DNA of 36,101 nt, taken from assembly GCA_023246195.1 (NCBI GenBank), contig JAHFIW010000003.1, positions 1 to 36,101 on the forward strand. Direction: 5' to 3'. The DNA comes from a bacterium (GTDB lineage: Bacteria > Patescibacteriota > Patescibacteriia > SG8-24). Under the pieces are notes generated by a model, which worked only from the letters and a program-made list of their open reading frames with translations, did not search any database and had not been told where the DNA came from. Shown one piece after another: positions 3,105-8,516 of this stretch (position 1 is the first letter of the stretch; every line of letters begins with the position of its first letter). A program made the translations under genes and the position numbers.

Positions 3105-3252
3105 TTGAACGCTCCTTGTTTGTTCGTTTTTCGCGTCATGTTCGACGGGAAAAGGAACAGCCCATATTGTCATATGTTTCCGATTTTGTCAATATGGAGG
3201 CGTCATCGTGACCTGTTCTTTAAAGTGCCAACCGTTCATTCAGGAGCATCCG

Positions 3253-3651
3253 ATGTCGGACACGACTAAACCGCCTCCGTCACCCCCGAAAACCGAAGCT
3301 TCGCCGGAGAAGAAACCTCTCGAGAACCCCAAGGTCAACGTGCGGGTGGTTCCCGCAAAGAAGAACGACCGCGAGTACGCAGAGAAGGTCAAGCGCAACC
3401 TCAAGACCGATGTCGAAAAGACGGTCAGGGAAAATGAGGGCGGCGGCGCAAAGAAACAGCTCGAATCCGCCGAAAAGACGGTCAGGGGAGTCGGCACGCA
3501 GGTCGACCCGAACAAGATCAGGGAGATTTCCGTGGATGTCAGCGGCAAAGTCGGCAAGACGAAAATTGCCGAGGAAACCGTGGTCAAGCCCGGAGCCGCG
3601 CCCGCTTCGGCGCCGTCTCCCGCAAAGCCTGACGACGGCAAGAAGAAATGA
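3253..3651 (+). CDS. Hypothetical Lys/Pro/Glu-rich low-complexity protein
   Basis: CAGGAGCATCCG-ATG; contains two EKTVR(E/G) segments; followed by terminator. Confidence 0.6.
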   Translation: MSDTTKPPPSPPKTEASPEKKPLENPKVNVRVVPAKKNDREYAEKVKRNLKTDVEKTVRENEGGGAKKQLESAEKTVRGVGTQVDPNKIREISVDVSGKVGKTKIAEETVVKPGAAPASAPSPAKPDDGKKK

Positions 3652-3686: not shown

Positions 3687-5330
3687 TTACGCGGATGCGT
3701 ATGCGACGGGTGCCAATTTTTTCACCATGTACGTTCCTTCGAGTGCGTAGCCGAGTTTTCGGTAATACTCTCGCACGCCAATGCCCGAAATGACCGCCAG
3801 CTTCGAGTACCCCGCAGCCGCGGCGACGCGCTCGGCTTCGGCCATCAGCTTGCGTCCGAGGCCTTTGTGCTGGCTCGCGTCCGCATCGTGTTCGTCGATG
3901 GGGACGAGATGGCCGTAAGTGTGCAGCTCGCGAATGAAGGCGACCCCGCGGATTTCGGGCATCGTATCCCACAGCTCCCTGACTTCGTCATGCGGATTTT
4001 TCGACGGCAGGCGCAATCGGCAGAAGGCGAACACGGCATGGCGCGCGCTGTCTTCGAGGCTCATGAAGTGCTCTTCGCCGCCGGACGCTTCGTAGACATC
4101 GTCAAAATATGTCAGCGCTTCTTTCATCAGCGCCGGTTCGGTTTGCGCGGCACGGCCGATCTCGCGGCATCGCAGGCAGGCGCACTTCAGCCCGCGCTTG
4201 GCCATCTCTGCCTGCACCGTCTGCCGCAGGTTCGTCACCGCGTTACCGGCGACGATGGACGTTGAGGGAATGTCGCGAATCAGGCGCGAGATGCGACAGT
4301 AGCGCGGTACGGCGGCCTTGGCGGCGATGAGCATCTCCGTGAGTTCGGCATCGGCGTAGGGAACATAGCGTCCGTCCTTCCACCATTCGTGGAGTTCGGC
4401 GAGTTCCACGGTCACGCACGGATAGATCTTGATCATGTCCGGACGGAAAGCGGGGTTGGCGAAAATCTCGCGCATCTCGGCGAGGTCGGAGGCGGGAGTG
4501 GCGCCGGGGAGTTGCGGCATCATGTGGAAGTCGGTCTTGTAGCCGGCGTCTTTCAGCAGCGCGGCGGCTCGCGTTACTGCGGCGACGTCGTGGCCGCGCT
4601 TGGTCAGCTCCAAAATGCGGTCGTCGACGGACTGCACGCCGAGCTCCACGCGGGTGCAGCCGAGCGCGCGCAGCCGCAAAATTTCCTTGGGCGTAATCCA
4701 GTCAGGACGCGTTTCCAAAGTGATGCCGATGATGCGGTGGCCGGCGGTCTCGTTACGGTCCTGGGCTTCGGCCAGGGTCTCGGTACGTTCGCGTTCCGCT
4801 GCCAAAAAATGATTGCAGGCGTCGAAACAGCGCTTGATGAACCATTGCTGATATTCCCAGGCATAGGCTGACCATGTCCCGCCCTTCACGATCAGTTCGA
4901 TCTTGTCGGCGGCGTGGCCGTTGTCGGTCAGGGCGCGCAGCCGTTGCGTCACCTGCTTCCACGGATCGAAGCGGTGCATGAGCGCGCGCATGGCCGCAGG
5001 CTCGTTGGAAAGGTAGCTCTTGGGCATGATGGCCTCGGTGGGGCAGTAGACGCACTTGCCGGGGCAGGCGTATGGTTTGGTGAGCACCGTCACGATGGCC
5101 ACGCCAGACAGCGAACGGACGCCGCGACGGGTGAGGACTTTGTCCAAGGCGGCGCTGGCCCTGGACGGATCGGCGGCGACGACCTTGGCGTAGGCTTTAC
5201 GCAGCGCCGAAGTGGGCGGAACGTTTTCTCCGGCGGCGCCGGACATCTTCCTCTTGAATTCCAAAAATTCGTCCTTGGTTTGGACGCCGTGCCTCAGAGA
5301 TGCTTGAATGATGTCTTCGGATATTCCCAT
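3687..5330 (-). CDS. elp3: Elp3: tRNA uridine(34) 5-carboxymethylaminomethyl modification radical SAM/GNAT enzyme
   Basis: RSLSGVAIVTVLTKPYACPGKCVYCPT (radical SAM CxxxCxxC), SNEPAAMRALMHRFDPWKQVTQRL, KIELIVKGGTWSAY, ELGVQSVDDRIL; C-terminal GNAT domain HQ/KGLGRKLMAEAERVA...VREYYRKLGY. Confidence 0.93.
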   Translation of the reverse strand: MGISEDIIQASLRHGVQTKDEFLEFKRKMSGAAGENVPPTSALRKAYAKVVAADPSRASAALDKVLTRRGVRSLSGVAIVTVLTKPYACPGKCVYCPTEAIMPKSYLSNEPAAMRALMHRFDPWKQVTQRLRALTDNGHAADKIELIVKGGTWSAYAWEYQQWFIKRCFDACNHFLAAERERTETLAEAQDRNETAGHRIIGITLETRPDWITPKEILRLRALGCTRVELGVQSVDDRILELTKRGHDVAAVTRAAALLKDAGYKTDFHMMPQLPGATPASDLAEMREIFANPAFRPDMIKIYPCVTVELAELHEWWKDGRYVPYADAELTEMLIAAKAAVPRYCRISRLIRDIPSTSIVAGNAVTNLRQTVQAEMAKRGLKCACLRCREIGRAAQTEPALMKEALTYFDDVYEASGGEEHFMSLEDSARHAVFAFCRLRLPSKNPHDEVRELWDTMPEIRGVAFIRELHTYGHLVPIDEHDADASQHKGLGRKLMAEAERVAAAAGYSKLAVISGIGVREYYRKLGYALEGTYMVKKLAPVAYASA

Positions 5331-5332
5331 GT

Positions 5333-6088
5333 ATGCGCAAAGAGATTGCCGATCAGCTGCTGGCCAAGGTGCGCGACGATTATGACGTGATAGCCGACGC
5401 CTTTTCGGCCTCGCGCGTTTCGACGTGGCCGGAAATGGACCGGATCCGCGAGTTCATCAAGCCCGGCGACCGCGTTTTGGACCTTGGATGCGGCAACGGC
5501 AGAGCGTATCAGCTGTGTAAGGGCATGGCAATAGAATATGAGGGCATGGACGCTTCATCCGAGCTCATCGCTCATGCCAAAAAAAACGTCAACGACCTGC
5601 TTGCCACCTTTGTCGTGGGAAACATGACCGCGTTGCCATATGAGTCGTCTTCGTTCGACCTCCTGTTGATGATCGCGTCGTTTCATCACCTGCCTTCCGA
5701 GGAGTATCGGCTTGCCGCGATGCGCGAAGCTTTTCGCGTGCTTAAGCCCGGAGGCGTGCTGTTCATGACTAATTGGGACAGGTGGAAGCCGCAATATGCG
5801 GCCGAACATTTCGCGGCATTTTTCAAGAAGATCCTCGGCCTGTCCCCCTATGATTTCGGTGACGTCTTCGTTGCCTGGAATCGCGGCGGTGCGAAGGTGA
5901 TGCGCTATTATCACGCCTTCACGCGCAGCAGCCTCGCAAGGGTATGTCGAAAGGCGGGACTCGTCGTAGCGGAGAACTATCATGTGGCCAAGGGCGTTCG
6001 CGTGCCGTGGTGGAAGGGCGATAATATCGTGACCGTCTGCCGCAAACCTCGTTTGGCCGACACGAATCCCGACCCCTTGCTTTTTTAG
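5333..6088 (+). CDS. Class I SAM methyltransferase of Trm9/ALKBH8-methyltransferase type (candidate tRNA cm5U methyltransferase)
   Basis: YDVIADAFSASRVSTWPEM, VLDLGCGNGR, ASFHHLPSEEYRLAAMREAFRVLKPGG, and RYYHAFTRSSLARVCRKAG matching the Trm9/ALKBH8 RYYHxF region. Confidence 0.75.
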   Translation: MRKEIADQLLAKVRDDYDVIADAFSASRVSTWPEMDRIREFIKPGDRVLDLGCGNGRAYQLCKGMAIEYEGMDASSELIAHAKKNVNDLLATFVVGNMTALPYESSSFDLLLMIASFHHLPSEEYRLAAMREAFRVLKPGGVLFMTNWDRWKPQYAAEHFAAFFKKILGLSPYDFGDVFVAWNRGGAKVMRYYHAFTRSSLARVCRKAGLVVAENYHVAKGVRVPWWKGDNIVTVCRKPRLADTNPDPLLF

Positions 6089-6189: not shown

Positions 6190-7038
6190 ATGAGTAAGGA
6201 CGAACGGGGTGTCCCGCGGAACGATGAAGAACGCGTCATGCGACGCTTTCTCGACAAGGGCATCGCCTGCAAGTGGGAGCCGTCGGAAGGCGGTCGAAAG
6301 ATCGTCTTCGATCATCCGGAAAAGCTGAACGATTTTTTCGAGATGATGATGCGGCGTCCGTCGGCGGGCTTTGCCGTCGGCGCGAGGCTGTTCTACCAGG
6401 GACTGGTTGCCAAGGACGTGGAGCAGACGGTGCGTTCGCATCTGCTTACGCGGCTGGCCCGTTCCCTGCACGACAGCGATTCCGAGGGCACGTCCCTCAT
6501 TACCGAGTCGGAAGTCGCGATGTTCGGCCATTTCGTCGCCGAACTCATCGGGGACTGGCCCGAGATCTTCGTCGCTTGGGCCGGAGACATGAACTCCGAC
6601 GATCCGAAGAACGACTTTCGGAAGCAGCCCACGGCCCTGATTCGCGGAGTGTTTCTTTCCTCTGCGGTCATTCAAAAAACGCAGAGCCTTCGGTTTTGGG
6701 AGATGGCCGCCGAATCGGTGCGGTTTCCCCTGAGGATCTTCTCGGATCCCTGCGAATCGAAACACGGCATCGTGTTCGCACCCTTTCACCTGAGGGCGTT
6801 CAGTCACATCCTCGGTGCCGTTTCGCAGTCTGCCGCGGAACGTTTCGCGAGGCAGATGTTCGCGCATGCTCGGACGAAGATTTTCATGGAGCCCGTTCGT
6901 CCCGGCGTGTGGGAGAGACGAGAGTTGCCCGTGACCGAGAACGAGCGGCTTCAGGCGTTCAATAACGTGGTTTCCGGCATCGAGGATGGCCATCGCCGAC
7001 AGGAAATGGCCAAGACGCTCGGTGTCGTCACGTCCTGA
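6190..7038 (+). CDS. Hypothetical protein
   Basis: ACCAAGGAGGCATTGTC-ATG strong SD; 282 aa; followed by terminator; no family recognised. Confidence 0.7.
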   Translation: MSKDERGVPRNDEERVMRRFLDKGIACKWEPSEGGRKIVFDHPEKLNDFFEMMMRRPSAGFAVGARLFYQGLVAKDVEQTVRSHLLTRLARSLHDSDSEGTSLITESEVAMFGHFVAELIGDWPEIFVAWAGDMNSDDPKNDFRKQPTALIRGVFLSSAVIQKTQSLRFWEMAAESVRFPLRIFSDPCESKHGIVFAPFHLRAFSHILGAVSQSAAERFARQMFAHARTKIFMEPVRPGVWERRELPVTENERLQAFNNVVSGIEDGHRRQEMAKTLGVVTS

Positions 7039-7043
7039 CGTTC

Positions 7044-7070
7044 AGGAGGGGGTACCCCCTCCTTTTTGTT
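7044..7070 (+). terminator. Rho-independent terminator with perfect palindrome
   Basis: AGGAGGGGGTACCCCCTCCT (perfect 20-nt palindrome) followed by T-rich tract. Confidence 0.8.
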
Positions 7071-7088
7071 TTTTTGGGCTTCTCGCCC

Positions 7089-7103
7089 TATACTTCATCG
7101 CAT
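7089..7103 (+). promoter_or_regulatory. Candidate -10 element for murC (near-leaderless transcript)
   Basis: TATACT followed by 9 nt then ATG; no SD between. Confidence 0.4.
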
Positions 7104-8516
7104 ATGTCCTTCCTGGATTCCGTAAAGAAGGCGCACGTCATCGGCGCGGGCGGCATCGGCGTTTCTGCCGTGGCCCGTCTTTTGCTGCATGAAGGCAAAA
7201 TCGTCAGCGGTTCCGACGCGGTCCGTAACGAAACGGTCGACGAGCTGAATGCGGCGGGCATCGTCGTGACGGTCGGTCATGATTCCTCTCACCTTCCCCC
7301 CGATGCCGACGTGGTGATTTTTTCCGACGCCGTGCCGCCCACCAATCCCGAACGTCATGAAGCCAGGCGCCTCGGCATTCGCGAGATGAGCTATTTCGAG
7401 TTTCTCGGCGAGTTTTCCAAGGATCGCTGGACCATCGCCGTCTCCGGCACCAACGGCAAGAGCACTACCACCGCGCTGCTCGGATTGATGCTGGAGCGCG
7501 GAGGGCTGGAGCCCACCGTCATCGTCGGGTCCAAGGTGCCGACCTTCGCGCACAAGAACCTGCGTATCGGCCGCAGCAAGTTCTTCGTGGTCGAGGCCGA
7601 CGAGTACAACGCGCACATGTTGCAGCTTTCGCCGCAAATGATCGTGCTTACCAACATCGAGGAAGACCATCTCGATTTTTATCGCGACCTGGCGCACATC
7701 CGCGACACCTTCAGGGAATACGTGCAGAACCTTCCGCCGGACGGCCAGCTGATCCTGAATGCCGACGATCACGTTTGCTTCTACGAGCTCGCGCCAAAGG
7801 TGCCGTTCGTCACTTACGCCATGGATAACCCGGCCGACTACGCGGCTCGTCATGTTTCCGTGACTTCGGGAATGCAGGCGTTTCAGATTGTTCGCACGCG
7901 AGGCGGATTGGAAACGGCGCTGGCCGACTGCGCCATGCGCCTGCCGGGACGGTTCAACGTCATGAACGCGCTTGCTGCCGCCACTGCCGCGCTCGAACTC
8001 GGCGTTTCGCCGGATGCCGTGGTCGCCACGTTGCGCGAGTTCACCGGCATCTGGCGCAGGTTTGAGTCGGTCGGGGAGTATCACGGCGCCACGCTCATAT
8101 CCGACTACGGCCATCATCCCACCGCCGTTCGCGGTACGATCGATGCCGTCCGCAGCTTTTTTCCCGGACGCCGCGTCGTGCTCGCGTTTCAACCGCATCA
8201 CCGTAACCGCACTCGAAAGCTGTTCGACGAGTTCGTGGCGTCCTTTGACGGCGCTGACGTGCTGGTGCTGTCCGAAGTCTATGACGTCGCCGGCCGCGAG
8301 GACGATGCCGACGCGAATGTCAGTTCGCGAGATCTCGTCGCCGCCACGAAGGCCCGTGATGCCGAGCGCGTCGTCGAACGCGAAGTGCTGTTCGGCGGCA
8401 CGGTCGCCGAAACGCAAAAGCGACTGGAGCATCTCATCAAGCCCGGCGACGCGGTGGTGCTGATGGGCGCCGGCGACCTCTACGTCATCGCCAAAAAACT
8501 TACCGGCGGCAGCTAG
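7104..8516 (+). CDS. murC: UDP-N-acetylmuramate--L-alanine ligase
   Basis: [60 protein letters not shown]. Confidence 0.95.

Follow-up and report, generated by a model that had tools for sequence, protein, structure and literature searches.

The closest described systems are those of eukaryotes, in which Elp3 acts within Elongator to form cm5U34 and a Trm9-type methyltransferase (MTase) esterifies the product. The MTase is Trm9–Trm112 in yeast and ALKBH8–TRMT112 in human. Yeast Trm9 requires Trm112 (PMC3110198), and archaeal Trm9 works with Trm112 as well (PMC7694415). Archaeal candidates that combine a lone Elp3 with a predicted Trm9 have been described in Sulfolobus and Haloferax (PMC2584109, PMC5372719). 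Clustering of the Elp3 and Trm9 genes in Sulfolobus solfataricus was noted in 2008, and an mcm5s2U-like base has been proposed for Haloferax (both PMC2584109). The lone Elp3 of Dehalococcoides mccartyi (DmcElp3), whose structure has been solved, was termed "a rare example of bacterial Elp3s" (PMC6367351). The bases cm5U, mcm5U, and ncm5U are listed for archaea and eukaryotes, not for Bacteria (PMC7694415), and the enzyme that converts cm5U to ncm5U is unknown (PMC7694415, PMC6367351). The usual bacterial route to C5 modification of U34 in split-box tRNAs is that of MnmE/MnmG (cmnm5U/mnm5U34).

The window analyzed here is a stretch of 36,101 nucleotides from a patescibacterial genome of 1.17 Mb that is 98% complete. 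Within it, elp3 (3687..5330, minus strand; 547 aa), encoding a radical SAM and GNAT tRNA U34 carboxymethyl enzyme that is the predicted cm5U34 maker, lies head-to-head with the gene for a Trm9-like class I SAM MTase (5333..6088, plus strand; 251 aa), a predicted cm5U34 carboxyl methyltransferase that would yield mcm5U34. The first-pass annotation had described this divergent pair, and both open reading frames (ORFs) are indeed intact; the MTase motifs that it quoted, including the SAM motif VLDLGCGNGR and the HH motif, are all present. The two ATG start codons (5328..5335) are separated by 2 bp. For either gene, a promoter or ribosome site would have to lie in or beyond the opposite gene, and no sigma-70-like site was found. 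Relatives carry full-length orthologs of both ORFs (34–67% identity) in an identical arrangement, so neither is a chance frame. The N-termini line up with those of the orthologs, which makes both start sites plausible.

The synteny elp3–MTase–uncharacterized gene–murC is kept in two relatives (G005 and G006). In three others (G004, G008, and G009; loci L027, L028, and L029), the order of elp3, the uncharacterized gene, and murC is intact and the MTase alone is cleanly absent, which would amount to loss at one locus (or later gain elsewhere). The ORF at 6190-7038 of the window (plus strand) encodes a protein of 282 aa that matched nothing in Pfam or NCBIfam; conserved at 25–36% identity, it separates the elp3/MTase locus from murC in most of the same-family genomes examined. 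Adjoining elp3 is an ORF (3208-3651, plus strand) for a Lys/Pro/Glu-rich protein of about 130–147 aa.

Window Elp3 scored 567 bits against TIGR01211, passing the curated cut-off of 350, and matched PF04055, PF16199, and PF00583, which cover the radical SAM and GNAT domains. The cluster cysteines of the CX3CX2C motif are kept (C89/C93/C96), and K77, K193, E386, and Y441 of DmcElp3 correspond to K143, K265, E468, and Y522. The nearest PDB structures were those of archaeal M. infernus Elp3 and of Dehalococcoides Elp3; the D. mccartyi protein scored 404 bits to window Elp3. These matches confirm the predicted enzyme as complete, with its catalytic residues intact.

Named relatives of the MTase belong to Kuenenbacteria and other Patescibacteria. 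The MTase was placed with a family profile made from an alignment of 41 relatives. Searched against 177,635 PDB sequences, this profile gave Yarrowia Trm9 (5cm2_Z) as its top match (E = 1.7e-28, near full length). A single relative (L054) likewise found Trm9 5cm2 first (2.9e-17); for the window MTase alone, Trm9 was merely one among many PDB matches (2e-7), and its best matches in Pfam and NCBIfam were generic or UbiE-type models. With the family profile, Trm9/ALKBH8 reached 102–120 bits; the E. coli proteins scored 56 (UbiG), 45 (BioC), 44 (UbiE), 41 (CmoM), 32 (CmoA), and 20 (CmoB). The Yarrowia Trm9 sequence was used as given in the PDB. The yeast Trm9 sequence used has the right length (279) and carries each of the five residues at its published position; neither it nor the human ALKBH8 sequence is needed for the main claim.

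In two trees, Trm9/ALKBH8 joined the MTase family with SH-aLRT values of 91 and 87, and E. coli UbiE, UbiG, BioC, and CmoA/B/M fell outside this group together with generic bacterial MTases. Tree support is moderate, and a comparison of Trm9 inside versus beside the bacterial family gave an AU p value of 0.70. An AlphaFold2 model of the window MTase had a mean pLDDT of 95. Foldseek with this model returned 3sm3 first, Hvo_0019 second and third, and Trm9 5cm2_Z fourth, the last having a target TM-score of 0.81, above that of any other top match; class I MTases share so similar a fold that rank discriminates poorly here. Among class I MTases, the window protein thus appears closest to Trm9/ALKBH8, a placement for which the tree support is not decisive. 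The first-pass annotation had favored this resemblance over a UbiE-type or generic identity; the profile search agrees, UbiE-type models fall far under their cut-offs, and the trees group the MTase with Trm9/ALKBH8, not with quinone or small-molecule enzymes.

Other identities were considered and rejected. UbiE/MenG was excluded by its scores (TIGR01934, 67.8 against a cut-off of 158.35; PRK00216, 52.8 against 216; 44 bits with the family profile) and by the tree, and UbiG, BioC, and CmoA/B/M by family-profile scores and the tree. The protein is not a full ALKBH8: only the methyltransferase domain was found, with no RRM or AlkB dioxygenase domain. Against the MTase profile, a long ORF from Candidatus Paraprochloron (L080:4800-6242) scored 120 bits, no lower than Trm9; no elp3 lies near it, and it adjoins an asparagine synthetase gene (6746-8320).

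Mutation of R29, H115, R241, Y243, or N271 in yeast Trm9 strongly lowers tRNA affinity and turnover and leaves SAM binding unaffected (PMC5372719). All five residues have counterparts in the window MTase: R28 (codon 5414..5416, plus strand), H118, R191, Y193, and N231 (codon 6023..6025, plus strand, from the alignment). R191 and Y193 belong to an RYYH motif (R191-H194; 5903..5914, plus strand) that corresponds to R241-H244 of yeast Trm9 in the family alignment and the PDB match. Across 72 family members, the equivalents are conserved in 71 (R29), 65 (H115), 71 (R241), 39 (Y243), and 66 (N271). Trp occupies the position of Trm9 W145 in 72/72 family members versus 5/40 generic MTases.

The sole exception at the R29-equivalent position is a His in G010, an order-level relative in which Elp3 was not detectable. 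This genome keeps the MTase at the same murC-linked locus (L026 / L035) though elp3 is missing, and an ORF similar in appearance to the Lys/Pro/Glu-rich one of the window adjoins the orphan gene (L022:893-1480). Loss of Elp3 and loss of the R29-equivalent go together in G010, and its MTase looks like a protein in decay or with altered function after elp3 loss.

We surveyed 286 genomes of the class with an MTase profile from five near relatives (a later survey used the profile from 41). The MTase was found in 178 genomes and Elp3 in 182; 170 have both, eight the MTase only, 12 Elp3 only, and 96 neither. Elp3 is therefore present in 170 of the 178 MTase-bearing genomes (Fisher, 5e-52, a value that overstates independence because the genomes share ancestry). 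In two MTase-only genomes, G074 and G107, the MTase lies near a contig end, and G107 has an Elp3 fragment there. The co-occurrence with elp3 on which the first-pass annotation had staked its reading thus holds in the class, and so does the conserved neighborhood: of 121 placed pairs, 109 (about 90%) are divergent at distances of up to 5 kb, with a spacing below 600 bp in 91 (one with a 2-nt overlap) and a larger one in 18. In a sample of 380 genomes from the phylum, 109 have an MTase match of 100 bits or higher, and Elp3 occurs in 107 of these; the 90 matches that reach 160 bits all belong to genomes with Elp3. The pairing recurs across Patescibacteria and likewise in Chloroflexota and Dojkabacteria. 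In the named collection, where an alignment query was used to find relatives (a single-protein query matched nothing there), a full-length MTase is divergent from elp3 in Chloroflexota (seven contigs) and Dojkabacteria (one contig). Two further Chloroflexota loci (L073 and L077) showed no elp3 within the stretches examined. No elp3 was found near loci in this collection whose match was confined to the generic SAM domain.

The genomic context was examined for the other enzymes of U34 modification. MnmG, the usual bacterial U34 enzyme, was found in 0/286 class genomes by a search that was positive in 9/14 control genomes. Both Elp3 and MnmG are missing from about a third of the class genomes surveyed; in these, C5 of U34 may be unmodified or may be modified by other means. 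MnmA, responsible for 2-thiolation, is present in the genome of the window and in 44/48 relatives. A search for a Trm112-like partner, suggested in the first-pass annotation, yielded no convincing stand-alone homologue across the 286 genomes. The Trm112p matches in 31 of them were discounted as false or unrelated, since almost all are located within ORFs at least about 250 aa long. We treat this absence as a functional difference and therefore call the protein Trm9-like. The Elongator scaffold (Elp1/2/4-6) is presumably absent too.

We consider it very probable that elp3 and the MTase gene constitute a minimal bacterial two-protein pathway to mcm5U34, the reading of the first-pass annotation, which homology, residues, and linkage support by comparison. 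The lone Elp3, without Elp1/2/4-6, would use acetyl-CoA and radical SAM chemistry to convert the wobble uridine to cm5U34. The adjoining Trm9-like enzyme would methylate the carboxylate of cm5U34 with SAM to give mcm5U34, with no Trm112 partner. Together with the MnmA of the genome, the product would be mcm5s2U34 on split-box tRNAs (Lys, Glu, and Gln), and the route would replace that of MnmE/MnmG, MnmG being missing from the sampled class. We infer the cm5U-to-mcm5U reaction, its product, the tRNA targets, and the independence from Trm112 from these comparisons. Several points count against the pathway: Elp3 occurs without the MTase in 12/286 genomes, tree support is moderate, Trm9 is placed only fourth by Foldseek, mcm5U is not on record for Bacteria (PMC7694415), and yeast Trm9 needs Trm112, of which no stand-alone copy was found.

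An improbable alternative has the MTase working on what Elp3 makes without mcm5U being the end base: the ester could be an intermediate (aminated to ncm5U, for example), or the enzyme could methylate another C5 substituent. In yeast trm9 mutants, ncm5U and cm5U are linked in a manner that is unresolved (PMC3110198), and the poor conservation of the Y243 equivalent points to a possible partial difference in substrate recognition. Against this, four of the five Trm9 substrate residues are near-invariant in the family and all five are present in the window MTase; moreover, no amidating gene adjoins any examined pair, and an asparagine-synthetase-like gene was found only where there is no adjacent MTase.

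Two other readings are much less probable still. Carboxyl methylation at C5 of U34 is carried out in bacteria by CmoM, and the E. coli cmoM annotation agrees with this role. The MTase could by this identical chemistry methylate cmo5U34 on family-box tRNAs (to mcmo5U), independently of Elp3, but E. coli CmoM scored far below Trm9 with the family profile and lies elsewhere in the tree, and the co-occurrence partner of the MTase is Elp3. The notion of a generic Methyltransf_11 enzyme for quinones or small molecules that neighbors elp3 by chance draws on the best Pfam/NCBIfam matches and is largely refuted by sub-threshold UbiE-type scores, elp3 linkage across two phyla, the family-specific Trm9 residues (W145, for example, by the counts given), and the tree.

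The two-protein pathway to mcm5U34 gains a possible counterpart where elp3 has no adjacent MTase. In six such loci, the neighbor of elp3 is a stand-alone PF00733 synthetase domain of the asparagine synthetase type, about 265 aa long, and none of these elp3-adjoining proteins has a glutaminase domain. The loci come from four family-level groups (genomes G306, G355, G380, G420, and G476, with a truncated copy in G341). The intact genes are at L179:2457-3305 (minus strand), L183:2822-3610 (plus), L185:5719-6531 (plus), L186:3039-3824 (minus), and L188:3254-4033 (plus), and the truncated one is at L232:4334-4765 (plus). The gene is divergent from elp3 in three family groups and on the same strand, tightly spaced, in one. 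Among some 47 loci examined in which the MTase is linked, none had a PF00733 neighbor (Fisher, 0.008, the counts being approximate and sharing ancestry). We regard the protein as a candidate ncm5U-forming enzyme, a lead and not a result, because ATP-dependent carboxylate amidation is the chemistry needed to convert cm5U to ncm5U. If this is correct, it is the first candidate for the missing enzyme, and the question of the ncm5U maker becomes directly testable. A broader and distinctly tentative idea is that lone Elp3 provides a common first step in Patescibacteria and that the adjoining second enzymes are interchangeable, a Trm112-free Trm9-like MTase (mcm5U) in most and a PF00733 amidase (ncm5U) in others.

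Well over half of the class genomes sampled, none of which yielded MnmG, carry both Elp3 and the Trm9-like MTase. If the proposed pathway operates, a wobble base of the archaeal/eukaryotic type serves these reduced bacteria in decoding split codon boxes. A two-protein system, possibly free of the Elongator scaffold and of Trm112, would be a model for enzymes linked to human disease, and the pair is relevant to the question of where eukaryotic Trm9 came from. A search of open-licence PMC papers turned up neither a bacterial Elp3–Trm9 pair nor bacterial mcm5U. Archaeal Elp3/Trm9 clustering and the Trm9 family are already known; what is new is the bacterial setting, apparently without Elongator scaffold or Trm112.

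Compared with the enzymes of yeast and human, the bacterial pair shares the SAM- and cm5U-binding residues but differs in other respects: Elongator scaffold subunits are presumably lacking and no stand-alone Trm112 was found; the MTase is a single-domain protein without RRM or AlkB; the two genes are adjacent and divergent; and the thiolase is bacterial MnmA instead of Ncs2/Ncs6. MnmE/MnmG are unrelated enzymes with a different product. E. coli CmoM likewise methylates the carboxyl group of a U34 substituent, but on cmo5U rather than cm5U. Whereas the D. mccartyi protein is a lone bacterial Elp3, Elp3 is found here in 182/286 class genomes with a dedicated MTase partner, and whereas the Sulfolobus and Haloferax candidates are archaeal, this pair belongs to Bacteria, being widespread over Patescibacteria and present also in Chloroflexota.
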